Origin: Halanaerobium hydrogeniformans
GTDB taxonomy: Bacteria > Bacillota > Halanaerobiia > Halanaerobiales > Halanaerobiaceae
Reading direction: 5' to 3'
Length of the DNA: 64,000 bases
Assembly (NCBI RefSeq): GCF_000166415.1
Contig: NC_014654.1
Location: forward strand, 558,001-622,000
Position numbers and translations under genes: made by a program. Shown in pieces: positions 5,735-14,147 of the stretch. Each line of letters starts with the position of its first letter. Positions within the stretch are counted from its first letter, which is position 1. Under the pieces are notes generated by a model. That model did not search any database. It saw only the letters and a program-made list of their open reading frames with translations, and was not told where the DNA came from.

Positions 5735-7336
5735 ATGCGAAGCAAGTTTTTACTCTACTTATTTGTACCAATTCTTGTAATCGGATTGAGTTTGGGAGTC
5801 TCAGCAGAAAGGGTACCTGAATTAAATATCATGACAACTACGGAAGGTTATGATCCGGTTCGTTATGAAGCGGCTTTTTTAATTCAGGAAAATTTAGCTG
5901 AATTGGGAATTGAGGTCAATGTTTCTCCAACCGAATTTAGTACATTAATTCAAAATTTCTATAATGAACAGGATTTTGAAATTGCTATTGCAGGTTGGTC
6001 AGGCAGGGTTGATAGACTTGATCCTCAGCACTTTTTAGGCACTTTAGAGTCTGGACAGGCTGATCTTGGTGGTAATAATCCGGGTGGCTATGTAAATGAA
6101 AGATATGATGAGCTATTTCAGATGCAGTCAAAAGAATTTGACCAGGATTTAAGAAGAGAATATGTTCTGGAAATGCAGGAAATAGCTATGGATGAACAGC
6201 CTGTTAACATACTCTTTTTTAGAGATGAGGTTGTAGCATATAATAGAGATAATTTCACAGGTTTTGTGCCAATGGCAGGAGAAGCTATTTATAATGAATG
6301 GATTCCCTTTGATGTTGAGCCTTTAACTGATGATAGAAGTCTAACAATCGGAACAACCCAGGAGCCGGATAATATTAATCCTCTTGATTCCACAACAGTT
6401 TGGGGCTGGAAATTCATGAGGATGTATTATGATAAATTAATCCGTCTTTCCCCAGATATTGAGCCTTTACCATGGGCTGCAGAATCTGTAGAAGCAATTG
6501 ATGATAATACGATCGAGATAGTTTTAAGAGATGGAATGTACTTCCATGACGGTGAACCTGTAACTGTAGATGATGTTAAATTTAGTTATGATTATTATCA
6601 AGAACAGGATTTTGCTTACTTTAGGCCTTTTTATCAGCCTTTAGAAGAAGTTATAGTTGTTGACGATAATACATTGCATTTTGTTCTCGAAGAACCAACA
6701 TCATTCTTTATAACAGTAACTTTAAGTCAGATTCCTATTTTACCTAAACACCTCTGGGAAGACATCGAAGCTGCAGATCAGCTTTCTCCAGAAGATGTAC
6801 CAACTGTAGGAAGTGGACCACTGGTATTTGATCAATATGATCGTGGTGAGTACAAACGACTGGTTAAAAATGAAGATTACTTTAAAGCAGATGAGATAGA
6901 TATTGATGCAGTTGATTTTAATATTTATGCCGATTCTGAAGGGGTTTATACTGCTTTAGTAACAGAAGAAATTGATATGACTGCCTGGAGATTGGAACCA
7001 GCTCAAATTGATCTTGCCGAACAGGAAGATCACCTTGAAGTAGTTAGTGTTCCTGATTTTGGGTATTATCATATGACCTATAATTTAAGAGTTCCTCCAA
7101 TGGATGATATAGAATTCAGAAGAGCTTTAGCCCATGCGGTACCTTATGAAACATTTATAAATGTTCTGCTGGATGGCTTAGGTGAAAGAGGGACTTCAAT
7201 AATTGCTCCTGTTAATTCTTTCTGGCATAATCCGGATGTTCCTCTCTATGATTATGATCTCGATTTAGCCAGAGAAAGATTAGAAGAAGCAGGTTATTGG
7301 TGGGATGATGAAGGTAGACTGAATTTCCCTCAATAA
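5735..7336 (+). CDS. Circularly permuted family 5 ABC solute-binding protein
   Basis: Extracytoplasmic binding protein of the oligopeptide/dipeptide (SBP_bac_5) family, 533 residues, with a signal peptide (residues 1-24, cleavage near VSA-E). The order of its parts is swapped. Residues ~29-190 read like the usual C-terminal half: PELNIMTTTEGYDPVRYEAA, then LAELGIEVNV, then AGWSGRVDRLDPQHF. Residues ~201-533 read like the usual N-terminal half: LTIGTTQEPDNINPL, FHDGEPVTVDDVKFSYDYY, FRRALAHAVPYETFI. The protein stops at EEAGYWWDDEGRLNFPQ, exactly where a normal member would continue into the segment that here opens the mature protein. A short linker (IPFDVEPLTDD) joins the old C-terminus to the old N-terminus. 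Start ATG follows AAGGAGGAG. A terminator separates it from the permease genes. The ligand cannot be read from sequence; peptides, nickel or sugars are all possible for the family. Confidence 0.88.
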   Translation: MRSKFLLYLFVPILVIGLSLGVSAERVPELNIMTTTEGYDPVRYEAAFLIQENLAELGIEVNVSPTEFSTLIQNFYNEQDFEIAIAGWSGRVDRLDPQHFLGTLESGQADLGGNNPGGYVNERYDELFQMQSKEFDQDLRREYVLEMQEIAMDEQPVNILFFRDEVVAYNRDNFTGFVPMAGEAIYNEWIPFDVEPLTDDRSLTIGTTQEPDNINPLDSTTVWGWKFMRMYYDKLIRLSPDIEPLPWAAESVEAIDDNTIEIVLRDGMYFHDGEPVTVDDVKFSYDYYQEQDFAYFRPFYQPLEEVIVVDDNTLHFVLEEPTSFFITVTLSQIPILPKHLWEDIEAADQLSPEDVPTVGSGPLVFDQYDRGEYKRLVKNEDYFKADEIDIDAVDFNIYADSEGVYTALVTEEIDMTAWRLEPAQIDLAEQEDHLEVVSVPDFGYYHMTYNLRVPPMDDIEFRRALAHAVPYETFINVLLDGLGERGTSIIAPVNSFWHNPDVPLYDYDLDLARERLEEAGYWWDDEGRLNFPQ

Positions 7337-7433: not shown

Positions 7434-8423
7434 ATGGGTAAAGGACAATTTTTCGCAAAAAGAATAATTCAATTAATAATAACTTTTTTTATAATTTTAA
7501 CTATACTATTTTTTCTGTTTCGTTTGGCTTTACCTGATCCAACTGCAGCTCTGGTTATGGATGGACTTTCTGCAGAAGAGCAGGCACTGGTCAGGGCTCG
7601 TTTTGGTCTTGATAGGCCATTAGTAGAACAGTATTTTATTTATTTAAGGAATTTTATGACAGGTGAATTTGGGATGTCATTTCATTATAAGTCGGCTGTT
7701 TTTCCGATTTTGATGGAAAAACTTTTTAATACCCTGGCTTTGATGTTGCCAGCAATTTTTATTTCTTATTTGATAGGGCCACTTTTGGGAGTGTTATTAT
7801 CCTGGAAAAGGGGAAGTAACACCGAATTTGCAGGTATAGTAGGGGGGCTCTTTTTGCGTTCTGCCCCTGTATTTTGGACCGGTATGATTTTTATTATGAT
7901 TTTTGGGATCTGGCTGGGTATATTACCAACCAGTGGGATGAGAACCCTACCTTACACAGCAAGTGGTAACTTTGATAAAATAATGACTTTAGATTATTTG
8001 CGGCATCTTATCTTGCCGATGACGACTATAGCCCTCTATTATCTTGGTCTACCGATGCTGATAATGAGGAATACTATGTTGGAAATTATGGGTGAAGATT
8101 TTATAGAATTATGTCAGGCAAAGGGTTTAAGTGAACGCAAGATAATGTATAAACATGTTGCCCGTAATGCTCTTTTACCTGTTGTGACCCAGGCTGCGAT
8201 TACAATTGGCCTTGCGGTTGGCGGACAGGTAGTAGTAGAGGTGGTCTTTTCCTGGCCGGGATTGGGTAGAGAAATGATCCAGGCTGTTCGGACAAGTGAT
8301 TTTCCGATGGCCCAGAGTGCTTTTATGATGATGGCCGGTCTGGTCTTAATTATGAACACAGCAGCTGATTTGCTTTATAGTTATTTAGATCCCCGGGTTG
8401 TACTTAAGGGGGGAAATAAATAA
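7434..8423 (+). CDS. Peptide-type ABC transporter permease (DppB/OppB family)
   Basis: Inner-membrane subunit of the peptide/nickel-type importer, 329 residues, about six membrane spans. The first span is at residues ~10-30, followed by the family's outside segment (LPDPTAALVMDGLSAEEQA, then LGLDRPLVEQYFIYLRNF-like sequence). The cytoplasmic coupling loop is visible as ELCQAKGLSERKIMYKHVARN. The C-terminus ends in the usual YSYLDPRVVL. ATG 7434 follows GAGGTGAAT. The stop overlaps the ATG of the next gene by one base (8423), so the two permeases are translationally coupled. It pairs with the permease next door to form the channel for the permuted binding protein. Confidence 0.92.
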   Translation: MGKGQFFAKRIIQLIITFFIILTILFFLFRLALPDPTAALVMDGLSAEEQALVRARFGLDRPLVEQYFIYLRNFMTGEFGMSFHYKSAVFPILMEKLFNTLALMLPAIFISYLIGPLLGVLLSWKRGSNTEFAGIVGGLFLRSAPVFWTGMIFIMIFGIWLGILPTSGMRTLPYTASGNFDKIMTLDYLRHLILPMTTIALYYLGLPMLIMRNTMLEIMGEDFIELCQAKGLSERKIMYKHVARNALLPVVTQAAITIGLAVGGQVVVEVVFSWPGLGREMIQAVRTSDFPMAQSAFMMMAGLVLIMNTAADLLYSYLDPRVVLKGGNK

Positions 8424-10219
8424 TGGCTGATAAAAAAGCTTTTAAAGAACGGCTGAAATATTTCAAGCCGATGCTGCTTAATCTTTTTGAACCATTTAAA
8501 ATAATATTTAAAGATCCTCTGGGTAGAATTGGAGCGGTAATTTTATCGATAATAATTTTAACCGCAATTTTTGCACCTTTACTTGCAACCCATGATCCCA
8601 ATCAGATGAATGAAAGAATTGAGGGAAGCTTAATACCCTTTGATGAAGATGGTGAGTGGAAAGATTATCAGGTTGTTGGAGAATATCCCTTTAATGAAGT
8701 TGCAATCGGTGAGGATTATGAAATAGCAGCTGCAGATGGTGGATATATATATTTGAAAGAGATTGGTGAAAGCTGGCAGGAATTTAAAATGGAATTAGAT
8801 ATTGATTTTCTGGCTGCCGCTGTTTATCAAGAAATGAAATTTGTGGCAGGAGAAGATGGTATAATTTTAAGGGAAGTAGATGGCAGCTGGCAGAGGATGC
8901 CTACAGATACAGATCAAGATATTAATGATTTAGTTATAATCGGTTCTGATCAGGCTTATGCTGTAGGTGATAATGGTCTCTTTTTGCGCTGGGATGGTGT
9001 AGAATGGAGTCAAATCGATAGTGGTACGACCAGGAATTTGAGGGAAATATCATTCAGTGCTCCTGAAGATGCTATAATAGTTGGTGATAGAGGTAGTATA
9101 ATTCATTACAGGGATGGTGAATTATCTGAACCTTCTTATCGTGGATTTATGGATTCAACTTTTAGAAACTTGCTGGCTGTTTCCTATTTCAGTCCCAATC
9201 AGGCTATAGCTGTTGGAGAAAGAGCAACAGTTATGATCTATGATGGTGAAAATTGGTATGCAGATGATAGTGGAGCTTCCCGCTCTCTTAATGGTGTTAT
9301 CCATATTTCTGAATCGGAAGCATATGCTATTGGTCTTAGAGGTACTATTTTAAAATATGATGGCGAAACATGGGAAACCCTTGATCGGATTACAAGAAGA
9401 GATTATCGTGGAATCAGTTATGGCTCAGAAAAGGGCTATATTTATGGAGTAGAACCATATGTTAATGAATTGGCCACTCCTTCTCGTGATCACTTTTTTG
9501 GGACAACCCACCTGGGGCGTGATATTTGGAGTCAGGTTATGTATGGAACAAGGACAGCTCTGATGGTTGGTATTATAGCAGCCCTGGTGGTTAATTTTAT
9601 TGGTGCAACAGTAGGTTTGATTGCAGGATATTACAGGGGTGGTGTAGATAATTTTTTGATGCGAATTGTTGATATAATGTACGGTTTGCCATTAGAACCA
9701 TTTGCAATAATCCTGGTTTTAATCTTTGAACCCAGCCTCTGGATTATAATTATGGCGATTGGGCTCTTGACCTGGAGAACCAATGCACGGATAATACGTT
9801 CTCAGGTTTTATCTCTGGTAGAAAGACCCTTTATTAAAGCAGCCAGGGTTGCTGGAGCCAGTGATGCAAGGATAATGCTTATTCATATAACCCCCAATAT
9901 TTTACCACTGGCATTTTTACAGTTGGCAGTTGCAATGGGATATGCTATTACAGCAGAAGCAACACTAAGTTTTCTAGGTCTTGGGCCACCACAGATTTAC
10001 AGTTGGGGAACAATACTTCATTCAGCTCGACTGTCTGGAGCCTGGCGTACAGCCTGGTGGTGGGTAATTCCACCTGGATTATTTATCTGTGTGACAGTGG
10101 TCTCAGTCTTTTTAATTTCTAGATCACTGGAAGTTTTAACAAATCCAAGATTGAGAGGAGGTAGAGATAATGCTCCTGAACCTGAAGAATCTGAAGACAT
10201 ATTACCGAATGGACAATAA
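8423..10219 (+). CDS. Peptide-type ABC permease (DppC/OppC family) with an inserted extracytoplasmic beta-propeller
   Basis: Second membrane subunit of the transporter. DppC-type permeases are about 280-320 residues; this one has 598. TM1 is at residues ~36-55 and ends in FAPLLATHDPNQMNE, the normal family sequence. The normal next segment, FFGTTHLGRDIWSQVMYGTR, appears only at ~358. Between them, residues ~65-350 form about six or seven ~45-residue units with the pattern AxAVGxxGxIxxxDGxxW, for example AYAVGDNGLFLRWDGVEW and AYAIGLRGTILKYDGETW. That pattern is typical of Ycf48/BNR-like beta-propellers. The remaining five spans and the coupling loop AARVAGASDARIMLIHITPN are intact. The propeller would sit outside the membrane, next to the binding protein. 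The reading frame is continuous with uniform composition, so this is a real fusion. The end overlaps the ATPase start by 50 bases. Confidence 0.92.
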   Translation: MADKKAFKERLKYFKPMLLNLFEPFKIIFKDPLGRIGAVILSIIILTAIFAPLLATHDPNQMNERIEGSLIPFDEDGEWKDYQVVGEYPFNEVAIGEDYEIAAADGGYIYLKEIGESWQEFKMELDIDFLAAAVYQEMKFVAGEDGIILREVDGSWQRMPTDTDQDINDLVIIGSDQAYAVGDNGLFLRWDGVEWSQIDSGTTRNLREISFSAPEDAIIVGDRGSIIHYRDGELSEPSYRGFMDSTFRNLLAVSYFSPNQAIAVGERATVMIYDGENWYADDSGASRSLNGVIHISESEAYAIGLRGTILKYDGETWETLDRITRRDYRGISYGSEKGYIYGVEPYVNELATPSRDHFFGTTHLGRDIWSQVMYGTRTALMVGIIAALVVNFIGATVGLIAGYYRGGVDNFLMRIVDIMYGLPLEPFAIILVLIFEPSLWIIIMAIGLLTWRTNARIIRSQVLSLVERPFIKAARVAGASDARIMLIHITPNILPLAFLQLAVAMGYAITAEATLSFLGLGPPQIYSWGTILHSARLSGAWRTAWWWVIPPGLFICVTVVSVFLISRSLEVLTNPRLRGGRDNAPEPEESEDILPNGQ

Positions 10220-12449
10220 AATAATCAAAGCAGTAGATGGAGTTTCTTTTCAACTAAAATCAGGAGAAAATCTCGGCCTGGTTGGAGAAAGCGGCTGTGG
10301 TAAAACTACAACCGCTAAATCTATAAATCGTATTTTACCAACAAATGGTGGAATAGTAGCCGGTGAGATCAATTTTCAGGGTAGAGATCTGGCCCGCTTA
10401 ACAGAACAAGAATTAAACAAGGTGCGCTGGCGTGATATTGCCATGGTTACTCAAAGTGCTATGAATGCTTTAAACCCGGTATACAAGATAGGTGAACAGA
10501 TGGTTGAGGCTTTTCAGACCCACATTAATATTTCTAAACAGGAGGCCCTTGATCGCTCAGCGCATTTATTTTCACTGGTAGGACTGGAAAAGAGCCGTTT
10601 AAATGATTATCCCCATCAGCTATCTGGAGGTATGAAACAAAGGGTTGTTATTGCGATGGCGATGGCCTTAGATCCACCTTTAATTATAGCAGATGAACCT
10701 ACCACTGCTCTGGATGTTGTAGTTCAGGATGGGATTTTAAAGCAGTTTGTCTACCTGCAAAACAAAATTAATTCTTCCATAATTTTGGTTACTCATGATA
10801 TTTCAGTAGTTGCAGAACTATGTCAGCGAACAGCAGTTATGTATGCCGGCCGGATCATGGAGCAGGGAAGTACTAGAGAGATTTTTAAAGAGGCCTATCA
10901 TCCCTACACATTGGGACTTATTAATGCCTTTCCAACCCTAGAAGCGGCGAAAGAAGAGCTGATTTCTATACCTGGTTCTCCACCAAATTTGGCCAGAGAA
11001 TTAAATGGCTGCAGGTTTAAAGAAAGGTGTCCTTTTGCTACAGAACTCTGTGAAAAAGATCCAGAGATTCAAGAGGTTGCAGATCAACATCTAGTAGCCT
11101 GTCATTATCCTGGCCGGGTACAAGAATTTAGAGAAAAAGCTGTGTTGCCTGCTACCTGGGATCAAGAGATGAATACTATTAAAGTGAAAAGCAAGAAAAA
11201 AAGGAAATCAGTTCTGGAAGTAGATGGTTTGAGAAAAGTGTTTGAGTTAAAAAGCAAAGATTTTTTTGGTCGAAAAAAAAGATTGCTTAAAGCAGTAGAT
11301 GGGGTTAATTTCAAGGTCAAAGAAAAAGAGATACTCGGTTTTGCTGGAGAAAGTGGTTCTGGTAAATCAACCTTAGGAGAATTGGTTGCTCGACTGCAGC
11401 AGGCTACTGAAGGGAAGATTCTTTATCTGGGTAGGGATATATCAGATCTAAAAAGGAAAAGATTAAAATCTTTCAGAAAAGATCTGCAGGTTGTTTTTCA
11501 GGATCCCTATGAAACCCTTAATCCCCGCTTTACAGTGATGCAGACGATTATGGAGCCTTTAAAAATTCATAAGATAGGTGATAACTTTTTTGAGAGGTTA
11601 GAAAAGGTAAAAGAAGCTCTTCATAAAGCTGAATTAAGACCTGTAGAAGATTATTTAGAGCGCTTTCCTCATCAGTTATCCGGTGGACAGCGTCAGAGGG
11701 TGGCCCTGGCGAGAGCAATAGTTTTAGAACCAAAGTTTATCATAGCTGATGAACCTGTATCTATGCTAGATGTTTCAGTTAGAGCTGGGATCCTTAATTT
11801 GTTGAAAAAATTAAGAGATGAACTGGGAGCATCTATAATTTATATTTCTCATGATCTGGCAACAATCCGCTATATTTGTGATCGGACAGCTATATTGTAC
11901 TTAGGTAGGATCATGGAAATTGGCGAGACCGAAACTGTGATTTCAAAAGCATGTCATCCTTACACTAAAATGCTGCTTGCAGCAGTTCCAATTCCAGATC
12001 CTGATCGAAATAGAGAAAGGGTGGATCCAAGAGGAGAAATACCAGATCCAATAGAATTACCTAATGGCTGTCGGTTCCATGCTCGCTGTGCTCAGGCAAC
12101 ACCGAACTGTGGTTTTGAAGCAAAAGATGTTGAAAAGGTTATTATTAAAGCTAAAAATCATCCGGATTATCCTGAAGTTTATAGTCAATTTGAACAGATC
12201 AAAAAAATAGAGATCAAGGCTTATAATCTGGAGTTGACCGTTGAGCTTAAGACTGATGATAAAGAAAGTTTTGAAGAATATCTCTGGAAAATAGCTGCCG
12301 AATGGAATAAATCACTTCCCAAAGCAGTAGTTGATTCCAGCTGGCAGGGAAATAAACTGATGATAGAATTTGCCGGTAAAGATGAGCCTGAGTTAAGAAA
12401 AAGCAAAACAGGTCAGGATGTAGCCTGTGTACTTTATCCAAAAAAATAA
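10170..12449 (+). CDS. Fused double ATPase of the peptide-type ABC transporter (DppD-DppF fusion) with a C-terminal extension
   Basis: Cytoplasmic energy subunit, 759 residues, joining two ABC proteins that are usually separate. The first half has Walker A GESGCGKTT near residue 40, signature LSGGMKQRVVIA near 151, and the oligopeptide-transporter C-terminal motif with spaced Cys (CRFKERCPFATELC). The second half has Walker A GESGSGKST near 394, signature LSGGQRQRVALARA near 500, and its own Cys motif (GCRFHARCAQATPNC). After residue ~650 comes ~110 residues (from DVEKVIIKAKNHPDYPEVYS) that are not part of the usual ABC fold and that I do not recognise. The start ATG follows GAGAGGAGG and lies inside the end of the permease gene, implying coupled translation. 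One chain would supply both nucleotide sites. Confidence 0.93.
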   Translation: MLLNLKNLKTYYRMDNKIIKAVDGVSFQLKSGENLGLVGESGCGKTTTAKSINRILPTNGGIVAGEINFQGRDLARLTEQELNKVRWRDIAMVTQSAMNALNPVYKIGEQMVEAFQTHINISKQEALDRSAHLFSLVGLEKSRLNDYPHQLSGGMKQRVVIAMAMALDPPLIIADEPTTALDVVVQDGILKQFVYLQNKINSSIILVTHDISVVAELCQRTAVMYAGRIMEQGSTREIFKEAYHPYTLGLINAFPTLEAAKEELISIPGSPPNLARELNGCRFKERCPFATELCEKDPEIQEVADQHLVACHYPGRVQEFREKAVLPATWDQEMNTIKVKSKKKRKSVLEVDGLRKVFELKSKDFFGRKKRLLKAVDGVNFKVKEKEILGFAGESGSGKSTLGELVARLQQATEGKILYLGRDISDLKRKRLKSFRKDLQVVFQDPYETLNPRFTVMQTIMEPLKIHKIGDNFFERLEKVKEALHKAELRPVEDYLERFPHQLSGGQRQRVALARAIVLEPKFIIADEPVSMLDVSVRAGILNLLKKLRDELGASIIYISHDLATIRYICDRTAILYLGRIMEIGETETVISKACHPYTKMLLAAVPIPDPDRNRERVDPRGEIPDPIELPNGCRFHARCAQATPNCGFEAKDVEKVIIKAKNHPDYPEVYSQFEQIKKIEIKAYNLELTVELKTDDKESFEEYLWKIAAEWNKSLPKAVVDSSWQGNKLMIEFAGKDEPELRKSKTGQDVACVLYPKK

Positions 12450-12596: not shown

Positions 12597-13214
12597 ATGC
12601 TCTATATTGAAGGACTGTTAAAAAAATCACCCGTTATACCAGCTGTCAAAAGTTTAAGTGATATTCAAAAAGTCCCAGATCATATTAATGCTATTTTAAT
12701 ATTGGATGCGGATATTCTTTATGTAGAAAAAATGATAGATCTTGCTGTACAGAAGGATCTAATAATATTTTTACATATAGATTTATTTAAAGGTATCAGC
12801 AGAGATGAATATGGAATTAGATATTTAGCTAGAAAAACAGGGATTGATGGTATTGTCTCAACTAAGGGATATTTGATTAAAATGGCCAGGGAAGAAAATT
12901 TAATTGCCATTCAAAGATTATTTATTATCGATTCTTCCGCCTTCGATAAAACTTTGCGGATAATTGAAGATGCTAAACCAGATATGATAGAAATATTACC
13001 GGGTTTGGTTTATCCGAGGTTAGCAAAAATATTGAGGCGAAAGATTAAACAACCCCTTATTGCCGGTGGGATGATAACAAATAAAAAAGATGTTGAAGAT
13101 ATTCTTCAAAAGGGTGCAACTGCTATATCCTCTAGTGACAAAAATATCTGGAAATATAAAGATTTTCAAAAAAATGAAAAAATCTCTTCACAATCCTTTA
13201 AATACTCTTTATAA
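12597..13214 (+). CDS. glpP: Glycerol-3-phosphate-responsive antiterminator, GlpP family
   Basis: GlpP proteins bind leader mRNA when glycerol-3-phosphate is present and stop premature termination. This 205-residue protein has the family's TIM-barrel pattern: VIPAVKSLSDIQ at the N-terminus, ILILDADIL, FLHIDLFKGISRDEYGIRYL, GIDGIVSTKG, the Arg-Leu-Phe-Ile-Asp-Ser segment (QRLFIIDSSAF), DMIEILPGLVYP and PLIAGGMITNKKDVEDIL. The last ~20 residues are a lysine-rich tail. ATG 12597 follows AGAAAGGA. Directly downstream is a leader with a strong terminator ahead of a glycerophosphodiesterase gene, whose reaction product is glycerol-3-phosphate. That makes the leader its natural target. E. coli has a paralogue, YgcP, so the exact effector is inferred. 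Confidence 0.85.
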   Translation: MLYIEGLLKKSPVIPAVKSLSDIQKVPDHINAILILDADILYVEKMIDLAVQKDLIIFLHIDLFKGISRDEYGIRYLARKTGIDGIVSTKGYLIKMAREENLIAIQRLFIIDSSAFDKTLRIIEDAKPDMIEILPGLVYPRLAKILRRKIKQPLIAGGMITNKKDVEDILQKGATAISSSDKNIWKYKDFQKNEKISSQSFKYSL

Positions 13215-13236
13215 TTGTATTTGTCGTATTAAATTT

Positions 13237-13267
13237 TTGCGTTTATTTTAAATATTCAAAATATAAT
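13237..13267 (+). promoter_or_regulatory. Possible promoter of the GDPD-TRAP operon
   Basis: TTGCGT at 13237-13242 and TATAAT at 13262-13267 with a 19-base spacer. The -10 is good, the spacing long. It would start a transcript through the terminator-bearing leader. Confidence 0.45.
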
Positions 13268-13292
13268 AAATACAATAGGTGAATCAGAGAAG

Positions 13293-13379
13293 CCCTATTT
13301 GTTTAATTAGAATGACTGTTTAGAAAGTTTAAGCAGCCAGCACCCCAACTATGCCTAATTAAACAGATAGGGATTTTTT
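13293..13379 (+). terminator. Leader terminator, candidate GlpP antitermination target
   Basis: An 18-base arm (13293-13310, CCCTATTTGTTTAATTAG) pairs with 13355-13372 with a single G-T wobble. It is followed by T6 at 13374-13379 and lies in the untranslated leader only ~34 bases before the GDPD start. The 44-base loop contains GCAGCCAGCACCCC, unstructured by eye. A terminator placed before the first gene, with an antiterminator gene just upstream, fits regulated read-through. Confidence 0.8.
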
Positions 13380-13412
13380 ATGCCTAATTTATAGAGGGAG
13401 GTGAAAAGAAGC

Positions 13413-14147
13413 TTGTCTGAAATTTTAAATATAGCCCACAAGGGAGCCTGTGGTTATTATCCAGAAAATTCTCTGCTGGCTTTTGAAAGAGCTGTAGAAA
13501 TGGGCTGTGATGCTTTTGAAATAGATGTACAGCTGAGCAGTGATGGGAAAATAGTGGTCTTCCATGATGAAGAGTTGGATAATGTTAGTGATGGATCAGG
13601 TTTTTTGAAAGACCATACCTGGGCAGAATTAAAAAACTTAGAAATAACAGATAATAATGAGGATGAAAAATATGGAGTGCAGAGAATTTTAAGTTTAAAA
13701 GAGTTGTTAAAAATGATGCAGAAAAATGACATTATTTTAAACTTAGAACTCAAAAATGATCTTATTGATTATCCTGGAATGGAAGAGAAGGTTTGTGAGA
13801 TGCTTAAAGAGTATAAAATGCTCGATAGGGTTATTGTTTCGTCATTTAATCACTATTCATTAAGAAAATTTTCAAAAATCTGTCCAGAAATTGATCTGGG
13901 AATACTCTATATGACGACCCTTATCAAACCTGAGAATTATGTTGATTCTTTAGATTTTAAAGTGAGATCACTTCATCCAGCAGCTAAAACTTTGGATCAA
14001 GAAGTTGTTAAGGGAATTAAAGCTTCTGGTTATGAGATATATCCTTATACGGTCAATGAAAAAGAAGAACTAAAAAAAATGATCGAATTAGGAGTAGATG
14101 GAATTATTACTGATTATCCAGATAGATTAAAAGAGATATTAAAATAA
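13413..14147 (+). CDS. Glycerophosphodiester phosphodiesterase (first copy)
   Basis: Cleaves glycerophosphodiesters to glycerol-3-phosphate and an alcohol. About 244 residues, TIM-barrel GDPD family, no signal peptide, so cytosolic. Visible are the N-terminal catalytic region (NIAHKGACGYYPENS), metal ligands in FEIDVQLSSDGKIVVFHDE, LNLELKN, and the C-terminal VDGIITDYPDRL. The usual HRG motif reads HKG here, a conservative Arg-to-Lys change; the second copy at 17.7 kb keeps HRG. The frame is open from a GTG at 13401. However, the TTG at 13413 lies 11-12 bases after GGGAGGTG and gives MSEILNIAH, matching the start of the second copy, so TTG is preferred. It leads the TRAP operon. Confidence 0.88.
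   Translation: MSEILNIAHKGACGYYPENSLLAFERAVEMGCDAFEIDVQLSSDGKIVVFHDEELDNVSDGSGFLKDHTWAELKNLEITDNNEDEKYGVQRILSLKELLKMMQKNDIILNLELKNDLIDYPGMEEKVCEMLKEYKMLDRVIVSSFNHYSLRKFSKICPEIDLGILYMTTLIKPENYVDSLDFKVRSLHPAAKTLDQEVVKGIKASGYEIYPYTVNEKEELKKMIELGVDGIITDYPDRLKEILK

Follow-up and report, generated by a model that had tools for sequence, protein, structure and literature searches.

The closest described counterparts of the locus analysed here are the type I peptide importers DppABCDF and OppABCDF of Escherichia coli and DppABCD and OppABCD of Mycobacterium tuberculosis (PDB IDs: 8z1v-8z1z, 8z21, 8wd9 and 8j5q). Large folded insertions in importer permeases are rare; where they have been studied, as in MalF P2, they inform on the docking of the binding protein and on signalling. 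MalF P2 reportedly contacts the binding protein throughout the cycle. In the E. coli Dpp importer, the TM1-TM2 regions are periplasmic and the scoop motif of DppB fills the cleft of DppA (PMC12136057). Docking by means of a beta-propeller is described for Ycf48, the Arg patch of which docks D1 (PMC10403576).

In the 64,000-nucleotide window of the Halanaerobium hydrogeniformans genome that was analysed (NC_014654.1, positions 558,001 to 622,000), a DppC-type permease carries an insert of ~280 residues between TM1 and TM2 (Table 1). The ORF contains zero internal stops. Before the insert, Pfam places OppC_N at residues 28-64. After it, BPD_transp_1 covers residues 394-578, a sequence search matches the core to E. 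coli DppC from residue 354 onward (E = 6e-40), the solved E. coli and M. tuberculosis DppC/OppC chains match from about residue 350 on, and Foldseek superimposes the core on DppC (8z1y_B, 8.4e-14). The host permease is thus intact on either side of the insert, as the preliminary description had stated. The interval first proposed for the insert, 8606-9480, is right within some ten codons at either end; the limits adopted here come from an alignment that includes ten insert-free relatives. With OppC_N and BPD_transp_1, an EAA/coupling helix and a DppB-type partner, the system is by domain content a Dpp/Opp-type (peptide/nickel) importer, yet it falls under every curated equivalog cutoff: among the NCBIfam models for DppC, OppC, NikC, GsiD, Opp4C and others, the best score is 231 bits for Opp4C, against a cutoff of 350. 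Insertions at this site are also observed elsewhere. Unrelated EF-hand insertions of ~150 residues occupy the same TM1-TM2 loop in DppC-type permeases of Myxococcota and relatives (L078:6713-8080 and L086:6371-7762), and a further DppC-type permease (L077:6335-7681) has an insertion similar in sequence to these. The TM1-TM2 loop of DppC-type permeases accepts unrelated domains.

Table 1 Features of the propeller importer locus, with positions in the window.
Feature	Position	Strand	Basis
Circularly permuted family-5 (cluster C) binding protein (SBP), 533 aa, N-terminal signal peptide	5735..7336	+	Pfam SBP_bac_5; AppA alignment
SBP residues about 27-194, N-terminal here but C-terminal in canonical SBPs	5813..6316	+	Alignments
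DppB-type permease, 329 aa	7434..8423	+	Pfam BPD_transp_1 and BPD_transp_1_N
DppB TM1-TM2 region aligned to the E. coli scoop motif	7530..7628	+	Alignment
DppC-type permease with inserted propeller, 598 aa	8423..10219	+	Pfam, E. coli DppC match, AlphaFold2, Foldseek
TM1, residues 32-54	8516..8584	+	Hydropathy peak 36-54; helix in predicted model
Seven-bladed Ycf48-type beta-propeller, residues about 65-343, TM1-TM2 extracytoplasmic loop (predicted)	8615..9451	+	Pfam PSII_BNR, AlphaFold2, Foldseek, profile against PDB
Conserved arginine face: R204, R223, R248, R267, R287, R326, R329; blades 4-7, BC and DA loops and adjoining strand	9032..9409	+	Conservation in 61 sequences
Permease core TM2-TM6 with EAA/coupling helix, residues 353-578; coupling helix about 469-476	9479..10156	+	Pfam, DppC match, model, Foldseek
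Fused DppD-DppF ATPase, 759 aa, two ABC_tran and two oligo_HPY domains	10170..12449	+	Pfam
About 90 extra residues between Cys 3 and Cys 4 of the DppF-half Fe-S (oligo_HPY) motif	12111..12419	+	Sequence

The propeller that the preliminary description had placed in the first outside loop is borne out by Pfam, by a profile search of the PDB, by AlphaFold2 and by Foldseek. PSII_BNR (PF14870) is matched with 42.9 bits against a gathering cutoff of 27, with its best stretch at residues 194-312, and a domain search of the insert alone recovers the same family (4.7e-11). A 36-sequence profile of the insert retrieves Ycf48 from the PDB (2xbg_A, 2.2e-16). In the AlphaFold2 model, for which 61 family members were included in the input, the mean pLDDT is 88 overall and about 94 in the insert, and 28 predicted strands form seven four-stranded blades, which fixes at seven the "six or seven" repeat units counted at first. 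Blade 7 combines N-terminal strands (residues 68-74 and 83-86) with C-terminal strands (328-333 and 337-343). Because this last blade is built from both ends, the ring is closed and the two ends of the insert meet. In the predicted model, the linkers from propeller to membrane are short, about 10 residues, and the elements follow the order TM1, insert, TM2-TM4, coupling helix, TM5 and TM6. TM2-TM4 separate the insert from the EAA/coupling helix, so that the two are on opposite sides of the membrane, and the insert is predicted to be extracytoplasmic. The model gives neither a missing propeller fold nor a disordered or cytoplasmic insert. The Pfam match, fold and profile rule out ordinary low-complexity repeats.

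Foldseek aligns the insert with Ycf48 (8am5_S, 2.8e-11; 5oj5_A, 3.1e-11; 2xbg, 1.2e-10). Like Ycf48/HCF136 (PDB IDs: 2xbg, 5oj5, 5ojr and 8am5), it is seven-bladed, belongs to the same Pfam family and has arginines at Arg-patch positions. In contrast, Ycf48/HCF136 occurs on its own, as a lipoprotein or a soluble factor, at photosynthetic membranes, whereas the insert resides within a permease and shares about 16-19% identity with it; the equivalog model for Ycf48 proper (NCBIfam PRK13684) is not reached (45.1 bits, cutoff 326). Propeller homologues were also sought in phages, and none were found.

The insert is present as a single copy in its own genome. The preliminary description had proposed a search for other such permeases; one scan of genome contigs returned 60 further full-length relatives with the insert. 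These are labelled Bacillota, Spirochaetota, Actinomycetota, Atribacterota, Thermotogota, Chloroflexota, Deinococcota, Pseudomonadota and a candidate division, and the family spans about nine bacterial phyla and one archaeal metagenome-assembled genome (MAG). Many of the relatives are from MAGs; the isolates include Halanaerobium polyolivorans, Mesorhizobium microcysteis and Aquamicrobium aerolatum, and in Nitratireductor sp. OM-1 the cassette is located on a plasmid recorded as complete. The isolates and the complete plasmid remove the doubt of a chimaera, and together with the single-contig source genome they rule out an assembly or frame artefact. Chance and assembly error are also excluded as the origin of the insert by its occurrence in dozens of genomes. 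Within Halanaerobiales, 8 of 38 genomes, the source genome included, have a strong match, and a ninth match is weak (1.5e-6). Across 399 sampled Bacillota genomes, a full match is found only in the source genome; the remaining hits are weak and cover only part of the insert, and they are taken to be other propeller proteins. The distribution of the family over several phyla suggests gene transfer.

Where contigs allow the neighbourhood to be read, the cassette order is nearly constant: permuted family-5 SBP, DppB, propeller-bearing DppC and fused DppD/DppF. That the permease adjoins a permuted binding protein, as initially described, is confirmed by the swapped alignment with AppA, in which SBP residues 206-530 match AppA 24-351 and residues 36-181 match AppA 363-503. 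The same permutation is observed in 51 of 51 cassette SBPs checked, and canonical SBPs of other loci align with the cassette SBP as two swapped pieces. Foldseek aligns only ~350 of the 533 SBP residues to ordinary SBPs, which is expected when a sequential aligner meets a permuted fold. The permuted SBPs of MAGs from Actinomycetota and Chloroflexota (L021 and L050) carry a lipobox together with an acidic linker, whereas those of diderm members mostly resemble soluble secreted proteins. The best NCBIfam model for DppB is Opp2B, under its equivalog cutoff. Residue 43 of DppB is acidic in all 57 propeller-clade sequences and in 0 of 10 relatives without the propeller. Fused DppD-DppF ATPases were counted 57 times among the cassettes; the one in the window scores 499 bits against GsiA, for which the cutoff is 1077. 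Its first half has a four-Cys motif, and in the DppF half the cysteines are C634, C640, C647 and, far downstream, C753. A Pfam search of the extra segment (ATPase residues 648-750) gave no match. This segment constitutes a second insertion within the cassette, and the fourth Cys returns near the C-terminus (VACVLY) in the sequences inspected. Downstream of the cassette (12597-14147), a GlpP-like antiterminator ORF and a glycerophosphodiesterase-like ORF, both assigned by sequence recognition only, precede a TRAP-type transporter.

Ten systems with a permuted SBP and no propeller were identified, from Halanaerobiales (L096-L099) and other Bacillota (L131, L132 and L134-L137). They have a DppC of 284-316 aa, the core of which is 51-59% identical to that of the propeller-bearing DppC of H. 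hydrogeniformans, and DppD and DppF are separate genes. By alignment, the propeller site is located between the conserved DPN..EG and LAxPS..GT stretches. In a tree built on the DppC core with insert columns removed, the propeller forms are one clade (98/98) within the permuted-SBP clade (100/100), consistent with one change. This topology indicates that the propeller was gained once, after the SBP permutation; from the nesting of the clades, the permutation came first, and the propeller and the ATPase fusion later. The ten propeller-free systems also rule out that the propeller is required because the SBP is permuted. More widely, ABC importers with permuted family-5 binding proteins and no propeller form a broad family, some members of which adjoin peptidase or amidohydrolase genes.

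Conservation on the two faces of the propeller was scored in 61 sequences, with strands assigned to blades from the AlphaFold2 model. The loop positions that are at least 75% conserved in the BC and DA loops are G, E and six of the face arginines (R204, R223, R248, R267, R287 and R326), and R329 is located in the adjoining strand. The AB loops have zero such positions and the CD loops only Trp. Each face arginine is kept in 52-60 of the 61 sequences, and an average of 9.1 Lys or Arg residues on the BC/DA side compares with 2.3 on the other side. From the predicted strand order, both membrane linkers are deduced to exit on the BC side of blade 7, which is the arginine face. R223 aligns with Ycf48 R196 (a position deduced from the alignment), R248 aligns with the SRRL arginines of Ycf48 in the profile alignment, and by spacing R204 and R267 may correspond to Arg180 and Arg237. 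At least two face arginines thus occupy positions of the D1-docking Arg patch. The face arginines were sought in the free-standing propeller relatives L090, L091 and L093 and are absent. Because free-standing propellers do without these arginines, the Arg patch looks like a docking face selected to point toward the membrane, not a general trait of the fold. These results suggest that a non-photosynthetic membrane complex, too, makes use of Arg-patch propellers of the Ycf48 type.

Sequence change in the insert is about 3.5 times as fast as in the core, and, together with the unrelated EF-hand insertions in the same loop of other DppC permeases, this rate would suit a passenger of little function acquired by an insertion-tolerant loop. 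Such a history is very improbable for a propeller that the whole clade retains, in about nine bacterial phyla, and whose nearly invariant arginines are missing from free propellers. A basic face on the membrane side, held by linkers of ~10 residues, could also anchor the importer in the envelope by binding anionic lipid headgroups, peptidoglycan, an S-layer or an outer-membrane protein. Binding of the outer envelope, one role proposed in the preliminary description, is disfavoured as a family function because some members belong to lineages that usually have no outer membrane (Nitriliruptorales and Anaerolineales with lipobox SBPs, and an archaeal MAG); walls differ among these lineages, which argues against a family-wide outer-membrane partner, and the conserved face is the one tethered to the membrane. 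Envelope anchoring in general is accordingly a poor candidate, slightly better than a passenger.

The role judged most likely, by analogy, is docking or positioning of the SBP at the importer rim. The propeller is proposed to be an add-on module comparable to MalF P2, with its Arg face on the outer rim, the docked SBP or both, and with the scoop releasing substrate; a probability of roughly 45% is assigned to this reading. The propeller would be located beside the docked binding protein, Arg face toward the membrane, where it would hold or position the loaded permuted SBP, brace DppB and DppC, or both. The Arg face may contact acidic residues of the SBP or permease in the way that the Ycf48 patch contacts D1, while the conserved DppB scoop would handle substrate release. 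Since the scoop region is kept in DppB, ordinary release seems intact and the propeller an addition; its retention rules out the propeller as a stand-in for a lost scoop.

Covariation does not single out the SBP: with the other subunits controlled for, the partial distance correlation between insert and SBP is 0.02 (permutation p = 0.36). The highest value, 0.37, is observed between insert and ATPase and may reflect common fast rates. This lack of SBP specificity is consistent with the main rival, a role in assembly or stability in which the propeller would not act in the transport cycle directly but would shield the membrane subunits in cis and keep them stable under saline or alkaline conditions. 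Ycf48 is itself an assembly factor with its Arg patch on the lumenal face of a membrane protein (PMC10403576), and the Arg positions are common to both. However, Ycf48 acts in trans and then leaves; it would be unusual for a stable importer to keep such a factor permanently fused, and related DppC proteins of other Halanaerobiales do without the propeller. An assembly or stability role is consequently regarded as unlikely, although less so than the other alternatives.

Propellers often bind ligands, and the centre or Arg face of this one might capture substrate and hand it to the SBP or channel. The conserved basic face could bind anionic ligands, and the SBP pocket differs from that of DppA: Glu37 is present where DppA has the carboxylate-binding Arg383 (the alignment around D436 is ambiguous by two residues). 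With this replacement, DppA-like dipeptide binding is not to be assumed. Capture by the propeller is nevertheless improbable, as every contig that extends far enough encodes a full SBP of the ligand-binding type beside the permease, and the conserved face looks toward the membrane. Hints of the substrate come from neighbouring genes. A gamma-glutamyltransferase (GGT) gene adjoins the cassette in 11 Rhodobacterales loci; these enzymes apparently lack a signal peptide and are read as cytosolic. Among Halanaerobiales, GGT is present in 10 of 12 permuted-SBP genomes versus 7 of 26 others (Fisher p = 0.0017, kinship not corrected); of the other cassette genomes inspected, most of them MAGs, only 16 of 23 have it. 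In Halanaerobium, no link was found between GGT and the importer operon. Permuted-SBP relatives without the propeller adjoin M19, M20 and amidohydrolase genes. In Aliiroseovarius sediminis, genes for an M24 (Xaa-Pro type) peptidase and for another family-5 SBP are located upstream of the cassette (L065:2929-4092 and L065:1324-2910). Plausible, if weakly indicated, substrates are small gamma-glutamyl or similar dipeptide-like compounds, which would be cleaved once inside the cytosol.

On the preferred reading of SBP docking, a broader and more tentative proposal can be built, namely that an Arg-lined propeller platform, added after the permutation, holds the permuted SBP on the channel and defines a new subtype of type I importer. 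As parts of this proposal, the permutation would have shifted the SBP termini to another lobe, and gene transfer would have spread the system across phyla. If correct, this would be a second propeller-based way of docking a soluble partner on a membrane complex. Because close natural relatives lack the propeller and some isolates carry the cassette, natural variants can be compared or exchanged to test what the extracytoplasmic module does.

The four-gene propeller importer appears to be undescribed so far. A literature search on ABC importers with propeller permeases or permuted SBPs, with most subscription journals and preprints outside its reach, returned nothing relevant, and public annotation reads only "ABC transporter permease subunit", in keeping with the initial remark that no importer of this layout was known. 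The broad family of circularly permuted binding proteins brought to light here is likewise apparently undescribed in the literature searched. Relative to the E. coli and M. tuberculosis importers, the cassette shares the DppB/DppC core (36-39% identity to the E. coli chains), the DppB scoop region, two ABC domains with oligo_HPY and a family-5 SBP. In contrast, those importers have a short DppC TM1-TM2 loop and an unpermuted SBP where the cassette has a 280-residue propeller and a permuted one, and DppD and DppF, fused in the cassette, are separate in E. coli. The glutathione importer GsiABCD of E. coli likewise combines a family-5 SBP with a fused ATPase and an adjoining peptidase gene, but it has no propeller and its SBP is unpermuted. 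MalF P2 of the maltose importer MalFGK2 resembles the propeller in being a large folded domain on the extracytoplasmic side, inserted into a single permease subunit of a type I importer; its fold, loop and permease family are different, and the analogy proposed here concerns function only.
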